Shown in pieces: positions 1,201-20,700 of a stretch of DNA of 64,000 nucleotides (position 1 is the stretch's first letter; the number at the start of each line of letters is the position of its first letter). A program made the translations under genes and the position numbers. Below the pieces are notes generated by a model. It had not been told where the DNA came from. It made no database searches and saw nothing but the letters and a program-made list of their open reading frames with translations. Source of the DNA: Isoetes taiwanensis (taxonomy: Eukaryota > Streptophyta > Lycopodiopsida > Isoetales > Isoetaceae); contig JAJEKV010000051.1 in NCBI GenBank assembly GCA_021234155.1, positions 5,088,698 through 5,152,697 of the forward strand, given 5' to 3'.

Positions 1201-4200
1201 TCTCATGCCTCAAGACATGCACTCTGCTTACGTAGTAGTTGCTGCTCCACCAGAGACTTCGACTAAATCAGTCCTCTTTGATCCAGATTTGGAACATCTT
1301 ATGTCTCACGTCATATCTGAACTTCGACAGAACATTCTTCGTTTGATGCAAGCTATAGAAGGACACACGCTCATGAATGTTCCACTACCACACAGGTTCA
1401 ACAACCCTCTGCTGACCTTTCTCTATTCACGCCACCTTCATGCAATCAACCATATCTCAATATTGCTGGTAAAGTTGAGCTCTTGCATGAAGTGTCAGCA
1501 TCACTAATCAAGGACCCCGCAGCAATGGATCCTGCTAGTCATTTTGCTCATGTTCCACTAGAACTTCAAGAGGAACATAAAAATCAAGATCTCTCTTAGC
1601 TTGACTACAATTTTAAAGTTGTGTCTTGTTCTTCGGAACAACTTCCACTACTATTTTAGTTGGTGCAGTCACTACGTCCACGTCCATTGTTCATGCTACA
1701 GTCAGGAATCATCAAGTCAACTATATTCAGATCAATGGAGGTAGTGTTGTCAATCTTATCACTAACAAATTAAGGCATCAATTAGATATCAAACAATTGT
1801 ATCGAGCTCCTTATGATATCAAAGTCGCTAATGGTCATATCATGCACCCTTAAGGCATAACTCCCCAGCTTACCATCAGTGTTGGTGATCTCAAGTTCCA
1901 TTTGGAATTTGGTGTTTGCAAACCTGACAATGCTGTTTGGACGCCCTTTCCTTCACTAAACCAAAAGCATTCACTATTAGGCCACTACCAACTGGTTATC
2001 ACTGATGGCAACTTGAATGCCACTATAGATTTAAAAACCAGTCAAGTCATCTCTGTCGAGTGTTCTGAACCTTCTTTGTCGGACAATGACCTTGATAATC
2101 TTCAAAACACTTGTCAAGTTTAAACATCTGCTCTCGTGCCTCCCTTGTTCTTTCCGTCTAAATATGAAGATCCTTGGGCTGATATGGAACTTGACAACGA
2201 CAATGTGATAGTCACATTAGTTGATCCCTACTTGGTGCCTTACCACCAGGTTTAACTTGTGTGTCCCCATGAAGAAGACAATAAGAAGATGATATTCAAC
2301 ACCTTCCTCCTCTCTGTTACCAGTTTTCAACAACCGTCTTTCCAAGTTGGAGCTGGTTTTTCAAAAATGTGATGAATTTAACATTAGTCTCAATCTAGTA
2401 AGTGCACCTTTTGTGTCACATTCGACATCCTTCTGGAACATGTCATTAGTTGCCATGGTGTTACAACAGATTCTGCCAAAATCAATTGTGTTTGCAAAGC
2501 TCAGGCACTACATCCTTTCTAGACAAAGTTAACTATTATTCTATTTTCATTCCAAGTTTGGCTATGAAAGCTGAATCCATACTAAAACTCAAGGGTGATG
2601 AATCCACTTAAGCTTAGAATTCCCAAGCTGAAGAAGCTTTTCAAGAGTAGGTTTTGCTCACGCAGGTCTCTGTTCTTGTTCTCCTTCAATAGGTTAAGCT
2701 TTTTCACGTCCATGTTCATGTGTTAACCTTTGCGATTGGTGTTGTCTTATCACAAGAATATTTACCCAATATAAACAAACCCATACATTTTGCCATCTGA
2801 AGCTTTGTTCTACCGCGAAAAAGTTAGTTCGCCAAGGAAGGTGAAGCTCTAAGTCTCACCTTTTATGTTCAACATTTCAGACACTATCTTCTATGGATCA
2901 TTAGACTCTCTTGTATTTGGTCAACAAGAGCATGTTCATGTGGGTTCTCTTCCTGTAAGAATTTGTTCCTTTTAAGATCATTCATAAATCAGAGAAATCA
3001 CACACCGTTTCTGATTATCTTTCACACATTCATACAGATGATCCATCTTCAGGTGTTTCAGATAGCTTTTCTGATGCTCAAACTTTTCTGGTCATGGCCA
3101 TGCCCCATTGGTTTCATACTATATCTACTCTTCGGTCCTCTTCCTCATGCGAATACCACGCTGCCTCCTGAGAAACTTCGAGCATGCTGCCAGCAATTTC
3201 TCTGTGAAGTTCATGATTATACCATGGTTTTAAGATCTTTATAAACGTGATAAGAATATGATCTTGAGCAGATGCGTCCTTCCTATGAAATTCTAGATAT
3301 TTTTCGCCAAGGCCATGCGGGTTTGGGCAGTGGCCATTTTAGTGGTGATAACACTGCGTGAAAAATCCTCTTGGCAGGATACTTTTGACCCATGTTGTTC
3401 AAAGATGCTCATGCTCACGCTCACGCTCCCGCCCCCGCTTGTGATGTATACCAAAGAGTAAGCTGACCACAGCCGGTGATGCTCTTCTGTTAATACCAAT
3501 CGCCACACCCACTCCCTTCAGTAAATGGAGGATGGACTTTGTTAGTTCTATCTTCAGTTCCGAATACCCATGCTCGATATATTCTTGTTCTCACAAACTA
3601 TGCTAGTAAGTGGGTGAAGCCTGTACTCTGCCAGATCACAGCCACTAGCATGGCATGTGTGCTTTTTACACATATCATCACGTGTTCTGGATTACCCATG
3701 GAATTTGTTAATAACTGAGGAGTTCATTTTGTAAACTACACTATCAAAAAATTCATGGACTATCTGCATATTCATCGTACAAAAAGCACGCCATATTATC
3801 CTCAAGGCAATGGCCTTGCTGAGGGTACCAACAAGACCTTGATTACCATCCTGAAGAAAATTTGTGACGCTTACCTAATATTAATGGGCTTATAGCACGA
3901 TCCTTAAAATAGCTACATGGCAAACACCTTTCGAGGGGGTTTATGGGCAAGAGGCCTTGATGCCATTTGTAGCTTGCCATAGTTCATAACCCACTAGCTA
4001 CTCTGTAGGAATGTGTGTATCAACTCCAACAACTTGATGAGATTCGTCGAGATGCCTATCTCCGTGTACTTGCTGGTAACAAATTGAGGAAATCCTGGCA
4101 TGATCACAAGATAACAAACAAAAAGTTTCAACAAGGTGACTTAGTTCTACTTTATGATTCCAGATACGTTAGGATCGTATGAGATTGTTCAAGTGGTCCA

Positions 4201-5400
4201 ACCCAGTATTTTTCAATTAGCAGAATTGGATGGCACACTATTACCATCACTGATAAATGGCTTTCGACTCAAACCTTTTCATATAGATTCAAACTGATAC
4301 GATTTAAAGATCCTGAATTTTTTGTCGTCTGCAATGTCCAACCCATGGTCTATGTCATGCACGATTACTTCTTGGCACATTCCAACAAGGCTTTCATTGC
4401 AGATCTCTTGCCCTCTGGATTTCTTGGTAGAGAAGAAGACCAATTGTTTCTTCACAAAGACAACGGATATTTATCTCATGCAGATTGAGCACATCCTTTC
4501 CAAAATGATTTTATGACAGGGCTTATTCGACTTCTTCCCATCTAAGATCAAGAAAGCATTGGAAGTAGTTCAATGGCACTTGCATGACCGTGATGATCTT
4601 GGCTATGCTCAGCTATACTTACAACACACTGGTACCTTCGACATTCTGAACTCCTATTTTGAAAACCATGTTGTACTCGTGGACTGGGAACCTTCTCCTT
4701 TATAAGGGTCGATGCTGACTTCTGAATGGGAGAAACTTTGTAAGCAATTGGATACTCCTCTGATTGAGGTATTTCGTGCAGCATCTCTGCAGGCTTTGGA
4801 AAATCGTGCCACATATCTTGATAATGCGTATGATTTTCTTGGGGTACCTCCCCGCTGTCAATTCTTGACCATGGATTAGAGATACCATTTCTAGACCAAT
4901 GCTATGTTATCTCACGCAGATTGGATTCCTACACACATCAGTACACATCTTCGTTGGAATCCTCGTTATGTACTCCGTCATACTTGGCAAGAGGGTGAAA
5001 TACTTGACAATACCCAGAACTAGATTTATATTCCAAATGAATGGGATTGGAAAACACCTACTCAGGCAGCATGGAGTTTAACTCAGTTTCTTGAACGAGC
5101 AACCACCTCTCCAGACTGCTCCGTTCACAGGCAGGCTAGTTTCTGTGCTGCCCTTCGAAGTCTACTATAAAGCTCAAAGCCTGTGAACGTGCTATTGATC
5201 ACTGCAATTCCAAGTGTTAGTATCTTTGGTCTTGAGATTCTCCTTCTTATAGAATACCCCTTTGTTATGGCTCTTGCTCATCAGGCTTTTGAAGAAATGA
5301 TTAGCTCTAGTTTTCTTATTGATGCCAAAAAACTTGGGGAGACTTGGGCAAGGGCAACATCTTGAGTGGAGGGGACTAAGTGTTCCGGGTCCAAGCTCAC
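1200..5400 (+). mobile_element. Degenerate Ty3/gypsy retrotransposon, second copy
   Basis: A full gypsy pol order can be followed through many stops and frameshifts. An aspartic-protease-like segment lies at about 1690-1900 (INGGSVVNLI, with N where the catalytic D is expected). The RT thumb lies at about 2340-2495 (FQKCDEFNISLN, then a shifted frame with CTFCVTFDILLEHVIS). RNase H lies at about 2715-2950 (TFAIGVVLSQEY), the integrase zinc-binding region at about 3285-3475 and the integrase core at about 3720-3880. The end of the integrase region is at about 4165-4300 (LDGTLLPSLINGFRLKPFH). Sequence after integrase (4320-5365) stays partly open but is unrecognised. No LTR pair was found. Confidence 0.75.
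3285..3900 (+). pseudogene. Gypsy integrase fragment
   Basis: Integrase joins retrotransposon cDNA into chromosomal DNA. The zinc-binding part reads ILDIFRQGHAGLGSGHF and later ACDVYQR, matching the H-H-C-C layout (HxGxGGHF ... CxxCQ), with one internal stop. Between them the codons for an alternating H-A-H-A-H-A-P-A-P-A tract suggest replication slippage at about 3407-3440. The catalytic core contains THRTKSTPYYPQGNGLAE in which the last E is the third residue of the D,D35E triad. In-frame stops show it is no longer functional. Confidence 0.75.
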
Positions 5401-5735
5401 CGTTTACTCTTGTAATTTTATTGATTAATGTATTTAGTTTAGAAAATTTTGGGGAGACTTAGACAAGGGCATGGTCGACTCCGCCTTGAGTGGAGGGGAC
5501 TAGGTGTTACAGGTCTAAGCTCACTGCCTACCCTTGTTTATTTGTTTATTAATGTATTAAAATAGGAATCTTTACGGGATTGGACAAGGGCATGGTCGGC
5601 TCCACCTTGAGTGGAGAGGACTGGGTGTACCAGGTCCATTCTCTATTTAATTTATTACCTTCACCAACGGCTTGGACAAGGGCATGGTTGGCTCCATCTT
5701 GAGTGGAGAGGATCGGTTGTACCGGGGTCCATAGT
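5330..5735 (+). repeat. Four-copy imperfect tandem repeat, unit roughly 100-125 bp
   Basis: The phrase GACAAGGGCATGGT...CTTGAGTGGAGGGGACT recurs at about 5345, 5460, 5582 and 5680, each followed by a diverged spacer ending in TTTATT-like sequence. Copies decay towards the right. It lies just after the gypsy pol region, where some gypsy elements carry tandem arrays before the 3' LTR. Confidence 0.85.
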
Positions 5736-6313
5736 ACCTCTTTCTTTATATCTTGTTTGTTTCTTTAAATTTTAAACAAAAAGAAAAATAAAAGACTGGG
5801 TTAGTTAGGGTTTTGAAAAAATCGCATTATTAATTTTAGGGTTCCAAGTTAAGAACGTTGTTTTTTCTAAATATTAGGGATGTCAAAGAAACGCTAATGT
5901 TGGGTGGTTAAGTATAAGCAAAATATACCGTAATTGGTTTTTAAAATAAATTTAAGAGGGAAATTAAATATTAAGAAAGTAGGTAAAGATTCGTAATGAA
6001 GGTTTGAAAAAAAGTCACAAAGCACGATTAATTAGTCTAAATTGGTTTGTAGGTATGGCCCCGAATGTGAAGACGCAGATGCTTACTGAGATTAGATGTA
6101 TGCTCATAAATGAGATATGTGCCACCGAAAGTCCCGACCGAGAGATGCAAACTGGTCAACGTGTTGACCATTTGTCAGACATGTCAAAAGGAAGTGCCAA
6201 TTTGACTTAGCACTAAAATGGCCAGGCCAGGAGAAAATGTTGACTTCTCTTCTTGACACACATGTAAAGTCAATGATTGGAAACTCCATGGACGAACTCA
6301 AGCATGCTTGAAG
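5736..6313. other. AT-rich stretch without gene
   Basis: AT-rich sequence with no convincing coding frame apart from a short open stretch at 6004-6210 of unknown meaning. It forms the left flank of the LTR retrotransposon that begins at 6319. Confidence 0.5.
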
Positions 6314-6318
6314 CATTC

Positions 6319-6669
6319 TGTTTGGATTCTTGGCATGCACCCTGCAGCAGCAGTCCATGACTGCCGGATGCTACACGGCTGCCATGCTCATGATCACAAA
6401 ACAAGAACAAGACAAAGAAAAATGTACAAAGAATGAAGGAAACGTGAGCTAATGAGGCTCTCCAAATTTGAGATAAAACCTGAGTACATCTGAAGAGGCT
6501 CCGGTCTAATATAGTGTAGACCGCAAATCTGAGCCGTACACTAACTAAATCTAAGCCATACACTTAAGTTAACCTAAGCATGCCAAGTGTCAGTCTGCCA
6601 CCACTGACACCTAACATGTGCATGCACCTAACATGTGCATGCACAATGTTAACCACTAGGTGGTTAACA
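6319..6669 (-). repeat. 3' LTR of the non-autonomous retrotransposon
   Basis: Pairs with 8841-9190; the two copies differ mainly in a short stretch at their left ends. Its right end is an inverted repeat, TGTTAACCAC-TAG-GTGGTTAACA, and next to it an 18-bp motif CCTAACATGTGCATGCA is tandemly repeated. Confidence 0.93.
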
Positions 6670-8826
6670 CTGCCTCCCCCTAAAAGTTTTTAGCACAAAA
6701 ATATGTACAGACTTTTATAAGACAAGTCCGACAATTACAACATGGTGCCAAAAAATTTTAGGGGCAGAAAGGATAGTACTGGTAATGGTTTGTTGTGTCG
6801 CTGAAAGATGAGCGTGAGCGCGTGATGTCGAAATTGAGGGCCCAAATATTGTCGATGTTGAGGGCCATAAGCAAGTGGGCTAAAAAGATATAATAACTTA
6901 CCCTCATATCATCATGGATAAGTCAAACAATGACAAAAATGCCACTTTAATAGGAATGGGGGCCTTAAAATATAAACATGAGAATGTAGACCCCGTGATC
7001 AGCCATGGAAAACTTGCACAAAATCTGGAAGAACGTGACGGTAGCGTGGGGCATGAGAACAGAGCGTGGCCCGGGCGCCGGCGTGGCGTGGCGTGGCCGT
7101 CGGCTTCGAAGGCTTGAGTTTGCGTCGGCGTGGGTCGGTGATGGGGCCCCGTGGAGTGGGGTCGTGGGCGATTATCGCCCGGCGTGGGCGTGGCCTTCTG
7201 AAGTTCCACGAGCGTGAGCAAGAACAGTTGACCCACGGCGTGACCCGTGATCAGCCTGCATAACAAGGCCTTAAACCCTAAAAATTTCGAAACCTAAAAG
7301 GGTTTTGCGGCGGCTAGGCATGGCGGTGAAGCTCTCTGAGCTGCCAAGATATACTGCTATTGCTATTTCCAGAAAATAGGGTGTCGAATGGAGCTTAATA
7401 TCTGCCTTGAAGTGCGCATGCTAAAGAGAGATCTGCAGAAGGAAAGTCTGATGTGATGCCGAAATTGTAGTGCTATAGATAGGAACTGGCCGAATGTTTG
7501 CTGGAACAGAGCCATTTGGTTGCCTGGAGCGGTGCTGCATCCTGCTATGTCAAGAAGAAATCAATGCAACAGGGATACACAGAGGGCAAAGCCCATTCTG
7601 CTGCTATAGATAAGTAGGGCGGTTTTTTCCCGGCCGAAGAAGATGCGGGGAAACTCGCTCGCGGAACAAAATCTTGCGTGCTGACCATTTGTTGGATAAA
7701 CGCGAAGAGAGAAAATAGACTGTAGAAACTGTGCGGGAGAGGAGAAAATCTGACTCTGCTCAACAAAGATGTTTGAATTGAATCTTCTAGCCTTGACTGA
7801 TGCAAAGATTTTGTTTATTTGCAGATGATCGAGACCAAGGAACCGAATAAATCCGACCTGAGACTTCGAAAATTTCCTCACAGATAGCTGACTTGAAAAT
7901 TGCTTTGCAACCTGTATATCTGCGGCAGATGGGTGGGGGCTAGCCACAGTGCTGGCCCTCTTGAAAAACGTGAATAAGAATAGATACTGGAAGCAGACAA
8001 GTTTATGTGTTGCAGATGCTTAAGGTGCAGGAATAACTCCCGTAAATCAGTTAACAAGCTGCCGGAGGATGTGCTGGCTTCCTGTTCTGGAGATGATACC
8101 TAGAAAAATGATTCTCGCTTGAACTGTTGCTTGAACTGTGCTTTCTTGCAGGTGATGCCGATAGAAAAAGAACGAATATCCTGCAGAGATAGGGGGCTAG
8201 CCAAGTGCTGGTCCTCTGCAAATTTTTTTGAAACAGAATATCAGAGCCCTGCTTACAGCTGCGTGCTCTTGGAAATCAGGAAAGACTGCAGCGGAGTAAT
8301 ATTTTTGGTGTGCAGCAACAAGCACTGCACGAATTTTCTGAAAAAATAATGGCAGAGAATGACGTCCTGCCTCTTGAGACAAATTTTTTTGGGGTGCAAA
8401 AGCACAATTTCTGATAAGCCAAGAGAAACAGAAGATGATAAAAATGATCAAAGACATGATTTTTTCTGATAGCTTTTTTAGCAGAGAAAAGATAAAAACC
8501 ACTTGATTTTTTCTTGATTTTGTTGTTGAGAGAGTCTTTTGTCACCACTCCGAAATCTGAAACCGCAAACCGTACTTGCCGCGACTTGAAAAACAGAGTC
8601 TTGAGAACAGATTTCTGAAATTAAATTTGATCGGTGGCGTAATCATCACCGTTTGGAAAAACAAAGGCCTCCAAGCGGATACACAAATCGACTTGGTTGG
8701 GCAAACTAAGGAAACCTAACAGGGGAAGAATAGTATACAAGAAGTCTTCAAAACGGGAAAAATTGGAGCAGCAAGACAACAAAGAAACAAAGAAGGGAGA
8801 AGAAAGTGATCACGAGCTTAACCCAA

Positions 8827-8839
8827 GATAATGGCGCCA
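8827..8839 (-). promoter_or_regulatory. tRNA primer-binding site
   Basis: TGGCGCCATTATC on the minus strand, one base inside the 5' LTR. TGGCGCC is the complement expected for a tRNA 3' end (GGCGCCA) used to prime minus-strand DNA synthesis in plant LTR elements. I cannot say which tRNA. Confidence 0.8.
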
Positions 8840-8840
8840 A

Positions 8841-9190
8841 TGTTTGATTCTTGGCATGCACCCCTGCGAAGAAATCCATGATCGCCGGATGCTACACGGC
8901 TGCCATGCTCATGATCACAAAACAAGAACAAGACAAAGAAAAATGTACAAAGAATGAAGGAAACGTGAGCTAATGAGGCTCTCCAAATTTGAGATAAAAC
9001 CTGAGTACATCTGAAGAGGCTCCGGTCTAATATAGTGTAGACCGCAAATCTGAGCCGTACACTAACTAAATCTAAGCCATACACTTAAGTTAACCTAAGC
9101 ATGCCAAGTGTCAGTCTGCCACCACTGACACCTAACATGTGCATGCACCTAACATGTGCATGCACAATGTTAACCACTAGGTGGTTAACA
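8841..9190 (-). repeat. 5' LTR of the non-autonomous retrotransposon
   Basis: 350 bp, begins TG and ends CA on the minus strand, adjacent to the primer-binding site at 8827-8839. It carries the same terminal inverted repeat as its partner. Confidence 0.93.
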
Positions 9191-9195
9191 CATTC

Positions 9196-11328
9196 AGTGC
9201 AGCTTAAAAGTCCCAATGCCAAGGCTCGTGTGAAGGAATGGGCAGCTTCATAGAATTCCTCAAAGAAGTGACGTGCAGACCACAAGAACATCATTGCGGA
9301 TCTCAATGCACGTCAGTTGGAGGTAATAAAAATGCCTTGCATCAGGAAGGAAGCTCTAGTGGAGCAGGGCCTAGCATGCCCCACTTTTCTTTGGAGAATC
9401 ACATGAACACATCAATCTTTGTTGAACCCATACCCGTAGAGGTCGTGGATGTGATGCGCCTTATTGAAGAGAAACTTACTCATCGCACGTATCAAATCAA
9501 GCTCAACAGAACATAACACTTCCAAGATGATGAGCTATACAGTGGATGGAATTTCAAGGGCGAAGATAGGGCCATGATGTATGAGATGGCTCAAAGATAC
9601 ATACGCTTCAAGAGCCCGCATCCTACTTTGGCTACATCCATTGGACTTGCATATAAAGTTGCTAGCTCTAGTTGGGATACCATAGGGCCAATAATGATTC
9701 TACCATTCATGAATAGAGAGACACTTGCACACTTGTTTGACTATTTGCCTAATAACCTCCGTTTTAGGAGATGGCCAAACGCAATTGCTAGAGCACCAAG
9801 AAGAATTGACAAACATATAGGCGCTGAAGTTAGGAGTAAAATGAGATTTGTATATCAGTATGTTCCAAAGATAGCTCTTGCCCTAGCAGAAGGTGTCGTT
9901 GAGATCCACAAAGGCCACTTCACTCACACAAAGCTCAAGCGCAAGAGAGTCAAATTAGTGGGTGGCCATTGGTGATTGGGACAATGCAATACATTTTTAC
10001 GCCAAGGAGCATCATCCCTTGTTGAAGTGCCGGTATTTACTCTCGGATGGACAAGCAAAATATCCATGGTTAGATGAAAGTGTGTTTGAGAAATCAAACG
10101 ATGATGATCGTGTATGGAGACACGAAATTCATGATGTCTATGCATTGGGATATGCTTCTTGATTCCCGCAAGCTATGCGATGAATTGAGTGGTTTAACAA
10201 TAACAACAATGCCCAATGGATTAATACAACCCATATGTACCAATGACATCTTAACAAGTTGGAGGAGCAAAAAAACGAGAATGATGTACCCAAGTGAAGA
10301 CGTATTCTCGAAATGGCCCAAAGCTTTTGAAGTTGTTGAAGCCTTACAAAGTGTTGGAATATCTTCCACCATGGTTGTGAGACAAAGACAACACATGAGG
10401 TGCATGGATGCCTTGGAGATGTCAAAACTATTGTTGGCACAACTCAAAGAATGAATGAAATATTGTATATCTTGCCATGTTTAAGAATAGTAAATTTTCT
10501 TAATTGTCTAATGACCAAATATGTAAAGAAACTTTTAACTAGAGAAATTCCAATATCATGAAACTTTTAGTTTGTCATAAGTTTGTGAAATGTGTTGCTA
10601 ACATTTCTTGCTTTCCTAATATGCCATTCATCACATTCCATATCCAGCAATCATGGACTATGGTGCGATGGCCTACGTTGGGTTGCCACCCCTATTTCTT
10701 TGGTGGGTTGGCAGCCTTATGGATGGCCCTAAATCCACGAAAGCCCCTAAGAGGCGAGGTTGATTCGGGTATAGCTCGCCACCACTGCCACCTCCACCAT
10801 TGTGCGGATTTGGTATGGATTATTTTTTAGGATAAGATGTAAGTTAGCCATTTATTTCTAATGTTCTAATAAACGTTTTTTAAATGTAGCGTGTAACTGC
10901 ATCATAGTCTTTTTTTCCATATGTGTGGTGTTCGTCGTTATGGTTTCGGGCGGATCTTTTTCTAGAAGAAGAAGAAACCATCCAGACTCGAGCAAGACAA
11001 AGAGGAGGGAACTCCGAAATATCATCAAGGCACCCGCTCTGAAGATAGGTGGAATGAATTGCAAAGCACGATGATGCCCAAAGAATGGGAGGTTGTGGAA
11101 AGAGCTGTTCAACAAAGTACGACGAGGTATGATTATGAACCCGCTCGGCATAACTCATACACTCCTTCAGAATATCTTAGGCCCATTCCCGAGGAGGATG
11201 AGATAGTACCTCGACGAAGGAGCACCCACCATCGTTCACGTTCCCGTGGACGTCTTTCCTCTTCAAGCTCTGTTAAAGATCGTGCACCACCTGCACGTCA
11301 ACATGTCTTTGAGTATAAGTGAGTTCAT
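9196..11328 (+). pseudogene. Left half of an unrecognised, decayed spliced gene
   Basis: Protein-like frames continue for about 2 kb. From 9238 to 9975 one frame is broken only by a stop at 9514-9516 and reads ELYSGWNFKGEDRAMMYEMA and FRRWPNAIARAPRRIDKHIG. It then shifts frame near 9960 into DWDNAIHFYAKEHHPLLKC and WLDESVFEKSNDDDRVWRHE. A proline-rich piece follows near 10650-10830. The last exon (about 11025-11319) is basic and serine/arginine-rich (RRRSTHHRSRSRGRLSSSSS) and ends at a good donor, GTGAGT, at 11320. The gene seems to resume at 20095, beyond the inserted transposon. I do not recognise the family; it could be a host gene or part of another mobile element. Stops and a frameshift indicate a pseudogene. 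Confidence 0.5.
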
Positions 11329-11398
11329 CTTGAATTATGCCATTTTTTGTTCACTAACACATATTCATATGTCTTAACCCTGTAATCACTCTCTTATA

Positions 11399-11425
11399 GG
11401 GTCTAAGCACAATATTGGGGGGCAA
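11399..11425 (+). repeat. Left terminal inverted repeat
   Basis: About 27 bp starting GGGTCTAAGCACAATATT, matching the reverse complement of 20056-20081 apart from one G in a G run. Confidence 0.92.
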
Positions 11426-11642
11426 TTTTTTTGTCGCCGACATAGGGTGCTGGGGGGTGCTTTATGCCTTTTTTCCTAATTTTAGGGTCCATTAACGAAG
11501 AACAGCATCGAGCGCGAAAAAACTCAAGCAAATTAAGGAGAGATTGGTAGCCCGCCCAGAATCTCTTCCCAAAATGTGGCTATCCCTCCAAATTCCAGTT
11601 TGCATTTGCTGCATTTTCTTTTCTTTTTTTTTTCAAGAACAG

Positions 11643-14600
11643 ATGGATTTGGTTGAGCGGTATGCTGCTGAATTTCAAGCAAAGTTTGGGGATTCAGATC
11701 CAGAACTTATAGCAAAAGAGCTGGGATTCGATCCTGAAGCTGATATACCAGAAATCTTGGTACCAAAAATTGAGGCATCAAGTGTTGTGGTTGGAAAAGA
11801 ATTATCAATTTTAGGAGAGCAGCCTTCAGTTCTTGCTTGTGATAATGTAGTTTCCCCTATAATTACAAAAGAAAGTCCTGCTGGCCATAACTGTTGTCTA
11901 TGTATTCAAGTGAAATGCAAATGTACCTCACCAAATACAGCTTGCAGGAGAATAATGTCTACCAAAAGAAGGATGCAGAGGAAAAGAAGAGCAGAAAGAT
12001 TAGCACTTGAATCTGCATCCAGTCCTCACAGACTGGCCACTCGAACCAAACAAAAGTTGGCAAAAGGTATTTTGGATAACATTCATAGTGTATGCAAGAA
12101 TTTATTTCAAGATGATTGGGATGAAATCTTGGCAAGAACAGGTCAGGGATTGCCAGAAATTGGTATAATGGGACACAAGGAATTGTTTGCAGTTAGGCAA
12201 GTTGTTGATAATGTGAAGAGTAGTCTTCAGACTAACAAACTAAGAAGGAACCAGGATATGACACAAGCAAGATCATCTACTCTTGTAATGGCTGTTAATA
12301 ATGCTAGCAATAAGTCTGGAGTTGCAAAGACTTTAAACATAAAGAGAAGGACTGTGTATGCTGCTTTGGACAAGAGGAAAGCAGCTGCAATTGGTGGGCC
12401 CTGGTCCATGTTTAAGAGAAAGGATAGAAGTGATAAGCTCTCTTTTAAAGGTCGAGAGAAGATATATAGTTACTGGGTTTGTAACACAAGAGTATCTCCC
12501 AACAAGAAACAAGTTGTGAAGCTTAGGAGAAACAATGAAGGAGTCAAGAATTTCAAGCCATATAGGTTGCATCCCATCCACTTTTTGAAAGAATCTCAGG
12601 TTAGTGAACTTTGATATTTTAGTTTTGAAATTCCTAGTAGTGTCAATTTACTGCTACATTTGAAGATCAGACAAATTTATTGAAGTGTAAATGTTATAAA
12701 AGTTTTTTTGTGTTGGCTTGATGTGCAGGTTGTCTTCTACAAAAAGTTTCAGAAACAGAATCCTGACATCAAAGTAGGTTTGAAAAGGTTTGAGTGCTTG
12801 AAACCTTTGTTTGTTAGGAGACTAAAAGATCGTGAAACTTGCATGTGCATTTATCACATGAAGATGGAATTTGTGAGACAGACATTGAATAGAATTAGAA
12901 GAGACATAAACACACATGGAACAAATTGTAAGTGCAAGTGTTCAATTTGTGGTGCTGGAGACTTTTGTGAAGCAAAGGAGATGACTTTTAATAGTGTTAG
13001 TGAACTATGGAGGTCAACGGTTTGTTCTAAGGCAGATGAGGATCTTTGGCACAAAGCAAATTGTCTACAACTTGATTGCAGCTCATGTGGAATAAGAAAA
13101 TTCAAAAGATGTCCAAGGAAGAAGAGCGCTATTCGGATAATCGATTGGAAAAGCTTTGAGAAGGTATGTACATGTTCAATTCATTGTTTTTGCATTTGTA
13201 TTCAATATTTGAAAAAACATGCAACTTATTTAAACTAAATCTGAAACTATGAATCTGAGAGTGTATTTTGTTTCTGCAGGTTAAAGAGACAATAAAAAGG
13301 AATCTGGGAAAGGATGGCTCCATCAAAGAGAAGACCAAGGATATCATGAGGCTAGTCTACAAAACAACAACATTGAAAGAATTCATGTCTCATGCTGAAT
13401 CTGTCATGAAGCAGTCCATTCCACATAATTACACAGCTAGGTGGCAAGCAGAACAATTTAAAAACTGTCTTCAAATATTTCCAAAAGGTACTATGGTTTC
13501 TGTTATAGATTTTGCCGAGAATTTCTCCTTCAAAGTTCAACAGGAAATCCAAAGCATGCATTGGCATAATGACCAATGTTCCATCCTAATTTATATCACT
13601 TACAGACATGCCCAAGATTCTGAAATCCCAAATCCCACACATCAAGATTGGTGACAGAAAAATTGTCAAAGAGACACATTTCTACATATCGGACGACAAG
13701 AAACATGACAGTTTATTTGTCCAGCATTGTTTCCAAAACCATCACGAGTTTTTGTTGAGCAGGGAAGTTAATTTGTCAAAACATGTGTTCTGGTCTGATG
13801 GATGTGCCTCCCAGTTCAAATCTTCTAGAGCTTTCTACTTCTTAGGCAGATTCTACAAGCTCAAGAGGATTAAGTTGCAGTGGAACTTTTTTGCCACATC
13901 ACATGGTAAAGGGGAGCATGACGGGGCTGGAGCTGTCATCAAAAGAATATTGACGAGTGAAATGCTTAAAAGGAACAGCACGCCCTTAAGGAATTCTGAA
14001 GATCTTGTCAACTTTCTCAATTCTTATTTCAGCTGCAAACAAACTTCAAAGGAATGCAACATACAAAGGTATTAGTTTTATTCCATAGTGTTGAGTAATT
14101 TTATATTGAAATTATTTCTTACACCCAAAACCATATGTGAACAGAGATTTGCCATATGAATATGATACTTTAGCCGGTACAAAAAAGATTCACACAATTA
14201 GGCCTTACTGCCAAGACAGGCCAACTGAAATGGCACATAGGCATCTCTCATGCTTTTGCAGATTTTGTTGGAGAGAATTATGGTCTAAATGTAGACATGC
14301 ATCTCGGCTTGGAGATTATTCATTGTCAACCCTGATTCCTATGGTTTTCGAGCAGGAGTCTCCTGTCCACCATGTGCAGTATGAGGGGGACAATCAATGG
14401 AAAGCAGAAATGGTTGAAGTAGGTGATAACTTTGTTGTGAATGCAGAGGAAGGAAATGATGAGAATGTGGATTTCTGGATAATCAAGTGCACTGAACCTA
14501 AACACATTGTGCAGCATGCATTTAAGGACTATTGGGGCTCTAAGTTCAACAGGCAGGAGGTTGTCTTGTCAGGTAAGTATTACAAGTTCATCGGAGATGG

Positions 14601-14802
14601 TAAGTATGAGCTGTTAGACAATATGCCTGATGTAACTTGCTATACACACCTTGTAGTTTGTGCAAAGGTTGAATTGCAGGCTGCACATGGTGAGAAGGGT
14701 GTGTTCTGCCTCTCAGATGATGCACATGAGCAGATTATTGAATATTTGCCTCCTCCCTCATCCGAGGCACTCGCTGCCAGCCCTAGTATAGAGGAGGATT
14801 GA
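11643..14802 (+). CDS. Transposase-like protein with candidate D/D/E residues, four exons
   Basis: Exons 11643-12599, 12729-13163, 13280-14068 and 14145-14802 join in frame at GT-AG sites, giving about 945 residues. I chose ATG 11643 because the frame upstream is a pyrimidine-rich non-coding run. Exon 1 has a Cys cluster (CCLCIQVKCKC) and then the segment RVSPNKKQVVKLRRN. Exon 2 has another Cys-rich segment (CKCKCSICGAGDFC). The likely catalytic core is in exon 3: VIDFAENF (D541), FWSDGCASQFKS about 96 residues on, and ATSHGKGEHDGAGAVIKR with E 39 residues after the second D. This is a plausible DD(38)E RNase H-fold layout. Exon 4 has CFCRFCWRELWSKC. One 1-nt frame offset lies near 13600, so this copy may be dead. 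I recall similar SDG...SHGKG proteins from aquatic animals, unverified. Confidence 0.7.
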
Positions 14803-15423
14803 TGCAGTGAAGTGAATCCATGCATAAATGTTAATATAACATTGTAAACTTGGGCAACTGTCTCTTCTATCTAAATAGTGAACCATATGGTTCATGTGTT
14901 GTTTCAGCCTTTTTCTTCTATCAATAGTAACAGAACCATATTGTAACCATTGTTTCAACCATTGTTGTCAAAAATTCAAAGTGTTTTAATATCAAGTGTT
15001 TCAATATTGATCAAGTGTCTTCTTTCTCTTGCTTTTATTGTTGGGTGCCCGGATTGTCAACTGCCTGTATGGAACAGGTGTTCAATGAATTGAACAAGTG
15101 CTTAAGTAATGAAGTCTTACAAGTAAACAAGTCCATTATTTCCTATCATCTTTGATCAGTTGTATAATGTTTAAATGTGTTGATAAATAATGTTTAAGTG
15201 GCTTCATTATTTCATCAAGTGATGTTGTTTAAATATTTCGAGTTCAATAACGTGTTTTTGTATTGAGTTCAATAAGTTGTGTGTTTGTATTGTCTTCTTT
15301 GTGTTTGTAATTTAAACAGTTCAAAACTTGTGTACTTGTGTACTTGTGTTCAATATTCAGTGTTTAATTGCATGTTTAAAGTGTTCAATTCAGTACTTGT
15401 CTGGTCTTGTGTTTCAAGTACAG
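14803..15423. other. 3' flank of the transposase-like gene
   Basis: AT-rich sequence with many GTGTTTAA/TTCAATA-like short motifs and no coding frame. It probably holds the 3' UTR of the transposase-like gene. Confidence 0.5.
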
Positions 15424-17200
15424 GTATTGAAGTAAAGAAGGCTAACCCTCAAAGTTTCACTACATTTAACCTGTTGCAAACCACATATTCATGAAGAAGA
15501 CTGCTCACAATTTCCTAAAAACTCAAGTATTCCATTGTAAACAAGTATTGAAGATGGGGTTAGGGTTAGGCGGCAGATAGGACGGCGGCGGCGGCCGCCC
15601 AAGCTTCGTGAAGACCCTGCACTTATCGTAGCTGTTGGAAGAGCAGCATCCGTGGCTGCTGCTACCCTTTCAGATCCGAAGTAGTAGCCGGGCTCCAAGC
15701 ATTTTTCTATCAGATTCGAGCTGCTGCAGTGAGCTTGCTACCAGGTTATGGCCGCTGTCCTGTTATCTTGCTTTTCTGTTCCATCTTGTGATAGGGTAAG
15801 TTTGGATACTCCGTTTCTTGCTGAAGCTCTGAAATGGTTTAGCACTAGCTAGCAGTTAGCTTGTTCTCAAGGTGCTCAGATATCCTGGGGTTTGGTTCTA
15901 GGCATGTCTAAGTGTATCTTTTAAGCTACTGTTAGCAATCTTGTAAGCACATCTTGGTGAAATCTTTCAGTTCTGGTTAGCTCTTTCAATCTTGGCTCCA
16001 TTTTGCTGCACCCACTGCAGTGTGTAAGCTGCACCCATTGCAGCGTGTATGCTGCACTCACTGTGGCATGATGATCGCACTCACTGCGATTATCTTGGTA
16101 GAGCTAATAGTGGTTTGTGTGCCTTGATTTGTTTGCAAGCCCGAGGAAGTGCTTGAATATCTTCCTGGATGTTTCTTGCATTTCCTTCCACATTCTCCAT
16201 CCCAGCTGGAGAGGAGATCAATGTTGGCTATGGCAGGCCAAGCTGAGACACTTTGCTAACGGACGGGAGGCCATGGCAGACCTGTCTTCCTTTGGTTTCC
16301 GGTGGCAGACTTGGTTTTTTTGTGGGGTCACAGCATTTTGCCTGAGGATTCCAATAAGATAATCTCTTGAAAAGGTGATGGGCATTCTCCTATCGTACAG
16401 ATTATTGCCAGAAGCTTGGATCTTCATCCCTTGGTCCTACATGAAAAGGGGAATGACCCATAGTAACTTTGCTGCATGGAAAGGGTAGGGGAGCTGCACA
16501 AAGGGGGTGGTGGGATGCTCCAAGTGTTGGAGTTATGCTGAAATATATCCTATAGTACTTTACTGGAGGGAAGATAATGGCAGTTCTCTCAAGTACGAAC
16601 ATCCTCTCACTTACATCCTTCGATTGAGCTTCAAGATGGTGGGAGCACACTTGGAAAGAGACCTCGGCCTTTGTAGTACCACTAGTAGGGGAAGAAGGTG
16701 GCTTTCAACGCTCACATGTTTGCAGCATTACTACTGTAATAGAGATGTGCCCTTCAGGTATACATTGCGGGGTGCATTTCAGGGTCTCAGGGAGCATTTC
16801 TTTATTAAACCCCACAAATGTTGCTACCTTCTTGAGTACGTGCAGTGGGCGAGAAGAGGGCTATGCCCTTAGTACTGGGTGGATCAAAAGGGTGGGGGCC
16901 CAAATCTTCTTGCAATAACGAGGAAGAGGTTGAGGATGCCTTGATCATAGTACATGAGTGTTATCTTAGAGTCGTCCTTCAAGCTTAATGGCTGTTTGTG
17001 CTTATCCCTTTAGGTATCTGGCTTTTGAGCCATCCTCAATAAGGTGTTTATACCATTATTTATTATAATAATAAAAATCTAGCCTTCAACCAAAAAAAAA
17101 AAAAAAAAAGTATTGAAGTAAAAAATGCTAACCCTCAAAGTTTCAGCACATTAAACCTGTTGCAAACCACATATTCATGAAGAAAACTGCTCACAAATTT
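15424..17200 (+). repeat. Tandem duplication of about 118 bp split by a retroposon
   Basis: The stretch starting GTATTGAAGTAAAG (15424-15513) recurs at 17110-17200 with few mismatches. It shares the CTAACCCTCAAAGTTTCA and CTGCTCACAA blocks. The intervening 1.6 kb is the retroposon, inserted at the boundary between the two units. Confidence 0.85.
15554..17109 (+). mobile_element. Poly(A) retroposon with 11-bp target duplication
   Basis: The insert begins ATGGGGTTAGGGTTAGG, is GC-rich at its 5' end, and finishes with TAATAATAAAAATC and 18 A residues. AAGTATTGAAG flanks it on both sides (15543-15553 and 17108-17118). Poly(A) plus a short target duplication is the hallmark of LINE-driven insertion. 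No reverse transcriptase is encoded; a frame near 15590-15670 reads REDPALIVAVGRAASVAAAT, of unknown origin. It may be a non-autonomous LINE derivative or a processed transcript. Confidence 0.8.
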
Positions 17201-17439
17201 GACAACCATAAATATGCATTCATTTACAAGGCATTTACATTGTGAAAGGTTCAAGCTTTCTGCCTTTACAAAATAGGCAGTACAAAATCATTGACATAGT
17301 GTCAATGGATTGACAGTCATTCTGTACAAAAAAAACATTGTAGTTCATGTCATTTAAAAAGGGATCTTCACTCTGCATAATAGAAACATGAAATTGAATT
17401 AACATACACATAGATGTAGTTGCAAGATCAATAAGTTAC

Positions 17440-17870
17440 AAACCTGGCAAGTGTAAAGAGATCTTCTTCTGTTTAACAAACTGTTCCAGTGTCATGGCTT
17501 CTTCATCACTGTCATCATCACGAGCATCAGCAACTTTGGCAGCAATAGATGGAATTGAAGGTGGAAGAGATGGAATTGAAGGTGCTTGAGCTGAAGGGGC
17601 TTCAACTAATGGTATCACAACTTCAAGAGGAACATGAGGAGATGCAAATGAAGGAGCTTGCACTAAAGGTACATTGGCTTCCACCTGTGTTGAAACTAAA
17701 GGTGCTGGAACTAGAGGTGCTGCAGTTACAGGGGCTTCAAAAGGTATATAGCAGCAATTGTAGATGCTACTGGTTCAAACCACAAATTTGCAATCTGGCT
17801 AGAGTTGAAGGACTCAGCTTGGTTGCTTAAAGTATCATCTAACAGCAGAAAATGAGAATCAATATCTGCA
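17440..17870 (-). pseudogene. Possible additional 3' exons, acidic and Pro/Ala/Val-rich
   Basis: Downstream of the RING-gene stop the minus strand keeps protein-like frames: SNQAESFNSSQIANLWFEPV, then after a frame change near 17735 a repetitive tract of the type EAPVTAAPLVPAPLV, ending DDDSDEEAMTLEQFVKQKK. It may be an extended C-terminus in other copies of the transposon, cut off here by the TAG at 17933-17931, or a separate decayed exon. Confidence 0.4.
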
Positions 17871-17930
17871 AAATAATAGCACATTATTATTTGAAATGAA
17901 ATGTAGCACATGTATACCTGTGGGAGCATC

Positions 17931-19854
17931 CTATTGTAGGTTCTTCTTAGAATCCTTTGGTGTATTCTCCCCACATTTTTTTTTGGTAACCACTGGCTGC
18001 TTACTTTTTGGTCCAGCCTTCTTTGTACTCTTTGGCTTATCTGTAAGGTAAGTAAGTTAGAAATACAAACAAAAATTACATTATTTTATAGCTAGAACAC
18101 TTACCAGAAACTGCAGATACATGCTCACATGCATTCCATTTACTAGGTCTACCTTTACGAACATTAGGAAGTTTCTTTTGTCCACCTTCTTCTACAATTG
18201 GTAAGGATTCTATTACTATTGGTGCAGGTTCAGCCTCAGAAATCCCTGGACCTGTTTGATCCTTAGCAGCTACAAGATTAGCATGTTCTTCTCCCTTCCT
18301 TTTCCTCTTAGCAGCAGCTGCAAAAAACACAAGGCTGTAAGGTTTATAAACTGCAATTAATAAAGACATTTATCAACATACTAACCTTTCTTGGGTGATG
18401 TCATAGACCTTGTTATACGTCTCTTGACCTTCACAGGTTCAGGTTCAGAGACTTGATCTTCCTCTATGTCTTCATCATCTTCTTCATAAGCAAGAGGTTC
18501 TTCCTTACACTTGTTGCTAGGTAAGGAATCCAGATAGCCAAGCTCAACATATAATTCTGTAGGCACTTCACTCTTGCAAACTATGCAAAGAAGGTTCTCC
18601 ATACAAACTTGGAAACAAAACAAGTGATACTTGTGTCCACAATTTAATTCAACACGTAATGTATAATCTGGATTGAAATCAAAACCACATACTTGACAAC
18701 CAGAAAGAAGATTAATCACTGTCAACTTACCAAAACTCGGTCTAATAATGCTTCTGCTAGCATTGTGCTCACGTAGGTGCTGTAAATTTTTAGCCTTCTC
18801 TTTGTATTCAGAAAAATCTAACATTTTGGCCTGCAAGGCATTGTTCAAATCTGTTAACTTCTCCTCCATTGCTTTACTGTTGTCAGCCTGTTTTTTCCTT
18901 TTCAGAATTGTGAGCAAAGACAAACCGAGCTTAGATTCATCATCACAAAGCTTAGCAATAGCATTATCCTCCTCTGGAAAGTCTTTAACCAAAAGCTGAA
19001 TATCAAGTTTAACATTTTTAATACTCTTGGAAACAGAGGTTGCAGCCTCATCAAAACCTGCAAGCAAGCCCTCATTTCTAATTTTCTCAACTTCAACCTC
19101 TTTGATTTGCTGCTGCAGAGACTTGATGGAATCTTCAAAAGCTAAATAGTCAGCTTCTAAATAAGAAACACCCATATTAATATTCTCCAAAGTAGTGTCT
19201 ACTTGATCCGTTTTATGCCTTTTATTCATGTTTGAAATCTCAATTCTTTCAAAAGAAAAGGTAGCCCGATCCAACAAATACTTACTTGGGTTCGATTCAG
19301 CTCTTCTAGTGTGCTGCCAAGCAAATGCACGTGCAAAAATAGTTCTGGCCTCATTGTTTTTCAAACCATCTTGATAAACCCTGTTAATCAAATCCTTCAG
19401 ATGATGTTCAAACTCTGGCCTAATTGCTGATACTTTTATCTTGTTGTCTTTCTTCACTTCCCCAGTCCAAACTGTCAAGAAATCACCCCTGGTGCAATCT
19501 GCCCAAGTTATAGTGCTTGGATCCTTGCCCTCATTGCACAAGCCACGATATTCTACAAACTGCTGGACTATGTAAGCTTTCTTCATCTGCAAAGCAAGCA
19601 TCAGAAAAGTTCGGCGATTCAAATTAAAAAAGAACAAAACAAATAAATCTTGAATCTTTCTTAACTTCAAAAAAAAAAACAGAAAAATCAGGAAGCAGGA
19701 ACACACAGACATGGATTTTTACCTCTTGTATGGTAGGCAGCTTGTTTGGTTCTTTGCCGAGATGCCGATCTTCAACTAAATCCTCTACAGGGTTTGTACC
19801 CAACGGCAACATCATAGCAGGCATGGCAATTATGAGAAAGTACCAGTGATTCAT
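17931..19854 (-). CDS. Coiled-coil RING-finger protein of the DNA transposon, four exons
   Basis: Exons 19854-19723, 19586-18386, 18317-18105 and 18040-17931 (minus) splice at GT-AG sites and keep one frame, giving 551 residues. Residues about 190-300 are Lys/Glu/Leu-rich with heptad-like spacing, so probably a coiled coil. Residues about 338-385 carry CQVC...CGHKYHLFC...CIVC, that is C-x2-C ... C-x-H-x2-H-x2-C ... C-x2-C, the ligand order of a RING-H2 finger, usually found in ubiquitin or SUMO E3 ligases. The tail has an acidic patch, a basic KRKRKG stretch that could direct nuclear import, and RKGRPSKW, which resembles an AT-hook core. The gene converges on the transposase-like gene within the same inverted repeats, so it probably acts in transposition, regulation or host-factor turnover (inference). 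Confidence 0.72.
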
Positions 19855-20055
19855 TGGCAGCAAAAGTTCATAGCTCTGGCCTCAAATCATAGCATGAAAT
19901 CATAGCTCCGGCTTCACGCAGAAAATCTGCACCAAAAAGATTTTAGGGTAAAGCAAGAACGCAATGAAAAAAAAAAGGGAGGGAGGGAAAACAAAAAAGG
20001 AGGGAAAGAAAACTTCTTTAGGGGGGTGCTGAAGGGGTGCTTGCCATGCGCATTT

Positions 20056-20081
20056 TTGCCCCCAATATTGTGCTTAGACCC
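20056..20081 (-). repeat. Right terminal inverted repeat
   Basis: Reverse complement reads GGGTCTAAGCACAATATT, matching 11399-11425. TATA follows immediately (20082-20085). Confidence 0.92.
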
Positions 20082-20094
20082 TATATCGAGTGTA

Positions 20095-20700
20095 GTCCTT
20101 CCACAAAGACGCCACGCAAGACCACTGAAGATGGCAAGCTTTTTTGGTCTACTGTCAATGCTGTTACGAATAACATTTGCCATAACGTCCACAAGGGTGA
20201 ATGGAACTCGAGATGCTTTGACCCCCGAAAAGAGGCGATCAAAGCGGCTTTAGAAGAAGAAGGAGAGATATCATGGAGGGAAGTTATAAAACATTATGGT
20301 CAGCATGTTAAAGCCACCAGGAATTAGGCTCTTTTATTCTTCATGATGACCACCATCATACTCATGTCTGATTTATATTCTGCAGAGGTAATCAGAAGAA
20401 GCAGCTGACAGAATTGGCAGAAGCTGCGGGAGTCTCGATAGACACAGTGGCAAAACCTCTAGGGTGGACTGATGAGGCATTTGAAGTACATCATCTCTAA
20501 TGCTTGAGACGAGTCGTATAACTAGATGATGCCACGTAGACTAAGACTTTGTGTTGCATTGCAGTGTTTGAAGACCAGCATAATTTCGAAGAAAGGGGTA
20601 GATAGAACTATGCCAGCTTTGAAGTCGAGGTATGACGAAGCAAGTGGCAGCTATAGTGCCAATAAGATTGGGTCCAGCAGTTGAGGGTACCAATAACCTA
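20095..20700 (+). pseudogene. Right half of the unrecognised spliced gene interrupted by the transposon
   Basis: After an acceptor-like TGTAG at 20090-20094 the frame reads TPRKTTEDGKLFWSTVNAVT and RCFDPRKEAIKAALEEEGEI. Two more exon-like blocks follow GCAG acceptors: KKQLTELAEAAGVSIDTVAK (about 20386-20486, donor GTACAT) and CLKTSIISKKGVDRTMPALK (about 20566-20685). A later stretch at 20775-20885 (RNVGKDERERAFKQGNRVAI) may also belong. Function unknown; the helix-rich sequence gives no clear family. The neighbouring left half ends in an open donor at 11320, so the two parts were probably one transcript before the transposon arrived. Confidence 0.45.

Follow-up and report, generated by a model that had tools for sequence, protein, structure and literature searches.

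A multicopy DNA transposon of Isoetes taiwanensis, probably Sola-like, with convergent transposase and RING-type genes

The stretch of DNA analysed here (the window) comprises 64,000 nucleotides of Isoetes taiwanensis (Lycopodiopsida; assembly GCA_021234155.1, contig JAJEKV010000051.1, positions 5,088,698 to 5,152,697) and carries, at window positions 11399 to 20081, a genuine, multicopy cut-and-paste DNA transposon. The evidence makes it fairly probable that this element belongs to a Sola-like cut-and-paste lineage whose autonomous members possess two convergent genes, one encoding a transposase and the other a RING-type accessory protein. An earlier reading of the window, made without database searches (the sequence-only reading), had proposed a DNA transposon of two genes, pairing a transposase with a RING-finger protein, and in the host genome the ends and both genes did prove to move as one unit: both genes, in pieces and convergent, lay within 12 of 12 inward-facing pairs of the terminal repeat less than 10 kb apart, and within 16 of 16 when four longer, interrupted pairs were included.

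Ends, target-site duplications and copies of the element

The ends of the window element comprise the following features.

11395..11398, no strand: left 4-bp target-site duplication TATA (window sequence and comparison of insertions)
11399..11421, + strand: left terminal inverted repeat GGGTCTAAGCACAATATTGGGGG (60 exact genomic copies)
11422..11558, + strand: left subterminal region with clustered GGTGC/GTGCT, candidate transposase binding sites (motif counts)
20059..20081, - strand: right terminal inverted repeat (repeat search and genomic copies)
20082..20085, no strand: right target-site duplication TATA (window sequence and comparison of insertions)

The element is bounded by a perfect 23-nucleotide (nt) inverted repeat with TATA just outside both ends; when TATA is included, the two arms (11395-11421 and 20059-20085) measure 27 nt each and are 100% complementary. 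The 23-mer without TATA occurred at two sites in the window with up to three mismatches, relative to none in 100 shuffles. Exact matches to it were found at 60 sites in the 1110 contigs (1.66 Gb) of the host assembly, whilst a reversed control gave none. These sites resolved into 16 inward-facing pairs (32 ends, spaced by up to 32 kb) plus 28 single ends. The pairs read were the 12 under 10 kb, the window among them, and the four longer, interrupted ones (two in part); eight of the 28 single ends were read over 9.9 kb, and four more (L007, L008, L009 and L014) over 1.5 kb inward.

Target-site duplications were compared for the 12 pairs under 10 kb. In all 12, the 4-bp flanks were equal on both sides and unlike between insertions, being TATA, TAGT, TGTT, AACA, TGGT, GTTA, TCTT, AGAA, TAAC, GATA, CCAT and TGCA. 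The matching repeats of about 26 bp with TATA flanks described in the sequence-only reading were thus real as repeats but 23 nt long, and TATA is the target-site duplication; its inclusion in the inverted repeat was ruled out, as the four bases vary from insertion to insertion. Because of the 60 genomic copies and the duplications in 12 of 12 pairs, the element is a real transposon, and the vanishingly improbable alternative that an inverted repeat happened to enclose unrelated genes, retroposed or of the host, is refuted, the search for other copies with the same ends having been proposed as a check in the earlier reading.

The terminal repeats of the 12 complete elements were perfect over 23-27 nt, their lengths ranged from 6.5 to 8.7 kb and their pairwise identities from 0.88 to 0.97. 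The transposase pieces detected in L020 did not include e4, from the catalytic exon; pieces of the RING exon were present. The left end of the window element contained five GGTGC/GTGCT motifs in its first 160 bp (one of them inside the repeat), relative to a mean of 0.64 internally, and in three families GCAC/GTGC motifs were clustered at the ends (4-7 per 160 bp compared with 0.3-0.6 internally). Among the longer pairs, L032/L033 (C1007:15449100-15482000, read in two parts) held several transposase copies of the family between ends 32 kb apart, an arrangement of nested or tandem insertions.

The two genes and their divergent relatives

The two genes of the window element were laid out from translations, with introns predicted from splice-like sites and the transposase exon bounds therefore approximate.

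11643..12599, + strand: transposase exon 1, 319 amino acids (aa), N-terminal part (splice-like sites, translation)
12729..13163, + strand: transposase exon 2, Cys-rich (recognisable in other families)
13280..14068, + strand: transposase exon 3 with VIDFAEN (first D), FWSDGCASQFK (second D) and SHGKGEHDG (third E/D)
14145..14802, + strand: transposase exon 4, with the conserved C-terminal domain and a closing TGA (splice-like sites, comparison)
17436..18320, - strand: 3' exons of the RING gene, bounds approximate, TAG in the window copy (translation, copy alignment)
18386..19586, - strand: main RING-gene exon, ends approximate, with N-terminal block, predicted coiled coil, RING and basic KVKRRITRSMTSP
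18576..18698, - strand: RING-type zinc motif C-x2-C-x15-C-x-H-x2-H-x2-C-x9-C-x2-C (pattern test)
19723..19854, - strand: first coding exon of the RING gene, bounds approximate (sequence, translation)

The convergent orientation described previously was confirmed, with the transposase on the + strand and the RING protein on the - strand. Three acidic motifs of the transposase were kept across families as VIDFAEN[YF], [FV]WSDGC[AS]SQFK and [SA]HGKGEHDGAGAVIKR, and the cores VIDFAEN, WSDG..SQFK and HGKGEHDG were common to the window, L043, L044 and L045. In L045, the first and second D are separated by 91 residues, and the second D is followed by E at 38 and by the next D at 40 residues. The D/D/E type assigned in the earlier reading is indistinguishable from D/D/D by sequence alone, since the last acidic position may be the E or the D of HGKGEHDG. 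The catalytic core is presumed to be of the RNase-H-type D-D-[E/D] fold, and the DFAEN, SDG..SQ[FY]K and HGK motifs are ones which we take to be Sola2-like. The exon 1 product showed a weak helix-turn-helix resemblance, under the cut-off. Pfam profile scans of the proteins returned no transposase match and none of Mutator type, and no relative was found in genome and viral contig collections; motif patterns run against the same kinds of collection gave six loci, judged to be chance matches, and a second pattern gave no match.

The zinc motif of the RING protein was recreated in 0 of 100000 shuffles. All eight zinc ligands with RING spacing were present in families 1 (that of the window), 2 and 3, whilst the last ligand pair of family 4 (L044) is C-x3-C and does not match the strict RING pattern. 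Families 1 and 3 also have in common an N-terminal block, GLKNNEA..IFAR.FAWQHT.RA, and a basic tail, KRR[IL]TRSMTSP; a low-confidence model suggests a long coiled coil. The top Pfam match was a RING family for the window, L031, L038 and L044 proteins, each under the cut-off. Sequence matches in the PDB were likewise to RING proteins, in five of five cases for the window exon (best E 0.005, RLIM) and six of seven for L038, all of them weak. No DNA-binding domain was recognised in the RING protein.

The same gene pair was found in families well separated from that of the window. Family 2 was detected nested in L038, where a window-family element is interrupted by a family-2 element and resumes beyond it; the latter is 7690 bp long, has GGGTGTAAATATGG at the start of its perfect 29-nt repeat and is flanked by the duplication CAAG. 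Its RING protein is 28.6% identical to that of the window over 154 aa, and its transposase, convergent with the RING gene, 38% (e2) and 47% (e3). L043 is a second family-2 copy, 94-95% identical over most of its length and harbouring both genes. Family 3, represented by L045 with L046 (C994:112771-121185), has imperfect repeats beginning GGGT and the duplication CTAC; its transposase is 64-68% identical in e3-e5 and 31% in e2, and its RING exon 42% over 398 aa. In family 4 (L044), the transposase can be read as a single 627-aa frame and the RING protein 36% identical over 66 aa; element ends were not found in L044. The RING gene is therefore convergent with the transposase in four families, and as the same pairing recurs in very different relatives, the RING-type protein is probably of use to the element, either in its movement or against silencing by the host.

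Further gene sequences lay beside the pair in two of these families. In family 2, a match to an NIF (FCP1-like) phosphatase (PF03031, E 1.3e-8) was located at L038:5390-6252, on the RING strand and downstream of the RING exon; its counterpart in the second copy (L043:5192-6053) is 82-86% identical, though the piece scanned gave no PF03031 match. This may be a gene captured from the host, or a fusion of RING and phosphatase parts. Directly adjoining the family-4 RING gene, at L044:1-4865, is a nested or neighbouring gene for a helicase of PIF1 type (PF05970, E 1.7e-81), Helitron-like by our own reading.

Comparison of families 1 and 3 gave identities at the three codon positions of 0.56/0.66/0.37 for the RING exon, and of 0.75/0.86/0.39 and 0.74/0.79/0.42 for two transposase pieces. 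These values show that selection has maintained both genes for a long time, with the RING gene evolving faster.

Pairing was also assessed genome-wide, by searches that scored the best 70-150 of about 2,500-12,800 first-look candidates per query; all counts are lower bounds. RING queries from families 1, 4 and 2 gave at least 107, 125 and 157 matches, respectively, and the union of the three lists at least 341 loci after merging. Two transposase queries gave at least 151 (150 listed) and at least 92 matches, or at least 204 merged loci. Among the matches listed, 80 of the 204 transposase loci had a RING locus within 14 kb, convergent in 78 of the 80, and 79 of the 341 RING loci had a transposase within that distance (77 of 79 convergent). 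When loci were placed at random on these contigs, each taken to end at the largest coordinate listed, the outcome was a mean of 4.1 and a maximum of 12 paired transposase loci. Co-occurrence of the two genes, which the earlier reading had put forward for checking, holds in 16 of 16 repeat pairs; genome-wide, 262 of the 341 RING loci had no transposase within 14 kb among the matches listed. Five of these (L016, L019, L020, L024 and L025) do have a transposase on direct reading, and the remaining unpaired loci are explained in part by incomplete match lists, though some may be free-standing RING genes.

Condition of the copies and evidence for silencing

The window copy looks dead, as its transposase frame is broken, its RING gene carries an early TAG and a LINE-like sequence (long interspersed nuclear element) has inserted within it. 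The frame is broken in exon 3 by a 7-nt tandem duplication at about 13623-13636, missing in 19 other aligned copies; a 28-bp intron at this point was ruled out, as the window-only duplication (one of 20 aligned copies) accounts for the break. The TAG lies in the exon after the RING; the site is covered by 12 other copies, of which nine have CAG, L021 also has TAG, and L016 and L022 are altered otherwise.

15554..17109, + strand: LINE-like or processed insertion with poly(A), nested and foreign to the element (9-bp flanking repeat)

The repeat bordering this insertion on both sides is GTATTGAAG, and among L015-L041 the insertion had a single match (122 bp at 72%, in L041). It is bracketed by a 90-nt direct repeat, 92% identical (15424-15513 and 17110-17199), probably an older tandem duplication within the element. 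Outside the element, open frames at 10966-11322 and 20100-20330 resemble two exons of one host gene, so that the transposon seems to sit in a host-gene intron, a few bases from the predicted 3' splice site. Further along the window, at 55624-57702, there is a retrotransposon-type open reading frame with an RVT_3 match (E 1.1e-20) and weaker aspartyl-protease-like matches.

Rates of change at CAG/CTG triplets were measured over whole elements for L015-L025 and the window. In eight of the 12 elements, these triplets deviated from the majority 6-9 times more often than control triplets, in up to 63% of cases; the ratio was 2.2 in L019, about 1.5 in L017 and L023, and 0.9 in the window. In L015 and L016, 62-63% of CAG/CTG triplets were altered relative to 8-9% of control triplets, and true divergence as the source of their low tblastn identity was mostly ruled out by this triplet-specific change. 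The pattern probably reflects long-read basecalling error at CHG-methylated cytosines, in which case most of these copies would be silenced, and frameshifts in them may be artefacts. A literature search on CAG/CTG basecalling errors returned nothing that settles this reading.

Function of the RING protein and known systems

The transposase would bind the terminal repeats and the adjoining clustered GCAC/GTGC sites, which are candidate sites, excise the element at its GGGT ends and insert it at a 4-bp staggered site, whilst the RING protein may work in the nucleus as an oligomeric partner. Of the roles considered for the latter, the likeliest, taken tentatively, is that of an E3-like adaptor that would modify or remove a target in the nucleus, this being the transposase or else a silencing factor of the host. 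A broader version of this, in which a large and old Sola-like lineage has a self-encoded RING ligase as a standard part of its two-gene core, with the element's transposase or a silencing protein of the host as the target for turnover, is doubtful on present evidence.

Several observations weigh against a conserved two-gene lineage with a RING-type partner. Only one of the eight single-end stretches of 9.9 kb (L037) held both window-family genes: transposase exons of that family were present in six (L034-L039), its RING gene in two (L037 and L040), and neither in L041. In the four 1.5-kb stretches, RING sequence was found in L007, transposase in L009 and L014, and neither in L008. Genome-wide, 124 of the 204 transposase loci had no RING locus within 14 kb among the matches listed. 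Within family 1, the unmasked ratio of nonsynonymous to synonymous rates (dN/dS, ratio of means) was 0.34 for the RING gene (16 copies) and 0.28-0.54 for the transposase pieces. As CAG/CTG triplets are heavily altered in some copies, the test was redone with codons near CAG/CTG removed, on 15 hand-chosen loci that left out L015, L016, L020, L024, L026, L032, L033, L035, L040 and others, and this masking lowered the evidence for RING-exon selection within the family. The masked ratio (pN/pS, from proportions of nonsynonymous and synonymous differences) was 0.59 for the RING exon (bootstrap 0.34-0.89, 10 copies) and 0.29 for the transposase (bootstrap 0.22-0.47, 14 copies); codon differences shared by at least two copies were 6 synonymous and 11 nonsynonymous in the former, and 25 and 8 in the latter. 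Recent selection on the RING gene within the window's family is hence weakly indicated. All Pfam RING scores fell under the curated cut-off (best 15.6 bits relative to 27), and neither structure prediction gave a usable model, the AlphaFold models of the RING protein and the transposase C-terminal exon having a mean predicted local distance difference test (pLDDT) score of 44 and 35, too poor for a structure search. Lastly, none of the four families compared has, at the positions where they would be expected, the Trp and Pro typical of the E2-binding face of a RING, which weakens the ligase reading, including the suggestion in the sequence-only reading of a ubiquitin or SUMO ligase that may act against silencing.

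The missing Trp and Pro accord instead with a non-catalytic partner that binds the ends or assembles the transposition complex as a scaffold, without ligase activity, the RING serving as a zinc-stabilised interaction domain. Such a role ranks next after the E3-like one and is possible rather than likely. The second proteins found in MuDR, En/Spm and PIF/Harbinger offer a parallel, and the low-confidence coiled coil, the basic tail and the near-strict convergent pairing among the matches listed are consistent with such a role; the RING families that head the Pfam matches, under the cut-off, the weak PDB matches to RING proteins and the lack of a recognised DNA-binding domain speak against it. 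Somewhat less likely again is an anti-silencing factor directed against host DNA methylation, action on host silencing factors having been suggested in the sequence-only reading. The strong CAG/CTG change in eight of the 12 complete elements, taken as a sign of CHG methylation and not seen in the window copy, L017 or L023, suggests a family under host silencing, which a counter-factor could oppose; the signature is itself indirect. It is improbable that the RING gene is a passenger, captured once from the host and carried neutrally. The weak selection within the window's family and the captured-looking phosphatase sequence of family 2 would suit a passenger, but neutral carriage predicts near-equal change at all codon positions, which was not observed between families: between families 1 and 3, which are about 42% identical here, the RING exon is open and under selection, and the gene is convergent with the transposase in four families and present at 341 or more merged loci.

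Whether a plant DNA transposon escapes silencing can depend on its accessory proteins, of which we know few. A RING partner kept across families at 28-42% identity provides a definite candidate, open to experiment, for a regulator encoded by the transposon, and if the broader ligase reading were true, transposon-borne ubiquitin or SUMO signalling would be a regular component of a DNA transposon. GGGT ends, 4-bp duplications and a convergent RING gene together provide an annotation signature for elements whose transposase was missed by Pfam scans.

Among known systems, RAG1 has a RING within the recombinase, and MuDR, of the Mutator superfamily, has two convergent genes, mudrA and mudrB, a transposase and an accessory gene, an arrangement that the present elements share. 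The duplications of hAT, CACTA and PIF/Harbinger elements are 8, 3 and 3 bp, respectively, and the 4-bp duplications found here do not fit them. The sequence-only reading had placed RING genes outside the plant families it named (these three, Mutator and Tc1/mariner), a list that omitted the likeliest home, Sola. The superfamily is probably Sola-like, given the 4-bp duplication and the D-D-[E/D] motifs, the likeness being to described features of Sola only.

The sources cited here were available in part, and statements drawn from them extend to those parts. Tc1/mariner and Mutator were ruled out by the varied 4-bp duplications, as opposed to TA or 7-12 bp (PMC10741241); the Mutator superfamily is further set apart by its relatively long repeats, compared with 23-27 bp here (PMC10741241). 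The elements resemble RAG1/ProtoRAG (PMC4411706) in that a RING-type domain is tied to a transposon recombinase, and differ in that the RING lies in a separate, convergent gene. Transposon superfamilies are listed in PMC9587614. Sola elements are described as having DDD transposases and 4-bp duplications, as occurring in Physcomitrella and as seemingly uncommon in flowering plants, which adds to the interest of the present lineage; they are mostly 2-9 kb long, with some over 15 kb, and have terminal inverted repeats of 11-1124 bp (PMC10741241). Sola1 is recorded in Physcomitrella and Sola also listed for Capsicum (PMC9033089), whilst Sola makes up 0.06% in a Ceratopteris repeat table (PMC6890710). 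The present elements agree with these descriptions in their 4-bp duplications (12 of 12 window-family pairs, plus CAAG and CTAC), and their lengths of 6.5-8.7 kb and repeats of 23-27 bp fall within the described ranges (PMC10741241). They depart from them in the second, RING-type gene (PMC10741241, PMC9033089), no description of which was found for Sola in the literature searched, mostly titles and the starts of abstracts, with Repbase and most subscription papers outside it. The social-amoeba Sola2 elements, which carry Fanzor1 and have AWWT duplications (PMC3627910), differ from those described here, where none of 14 duplications follows the AWWT rule. Both nonetheless combine 4-bp duplications with a second protein beside a Sola-type or, here, probably Sola-like transposase, that protein being Fanzor in the amoebal elements and RING in those of I. 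taiwanensis (PMC3627910).

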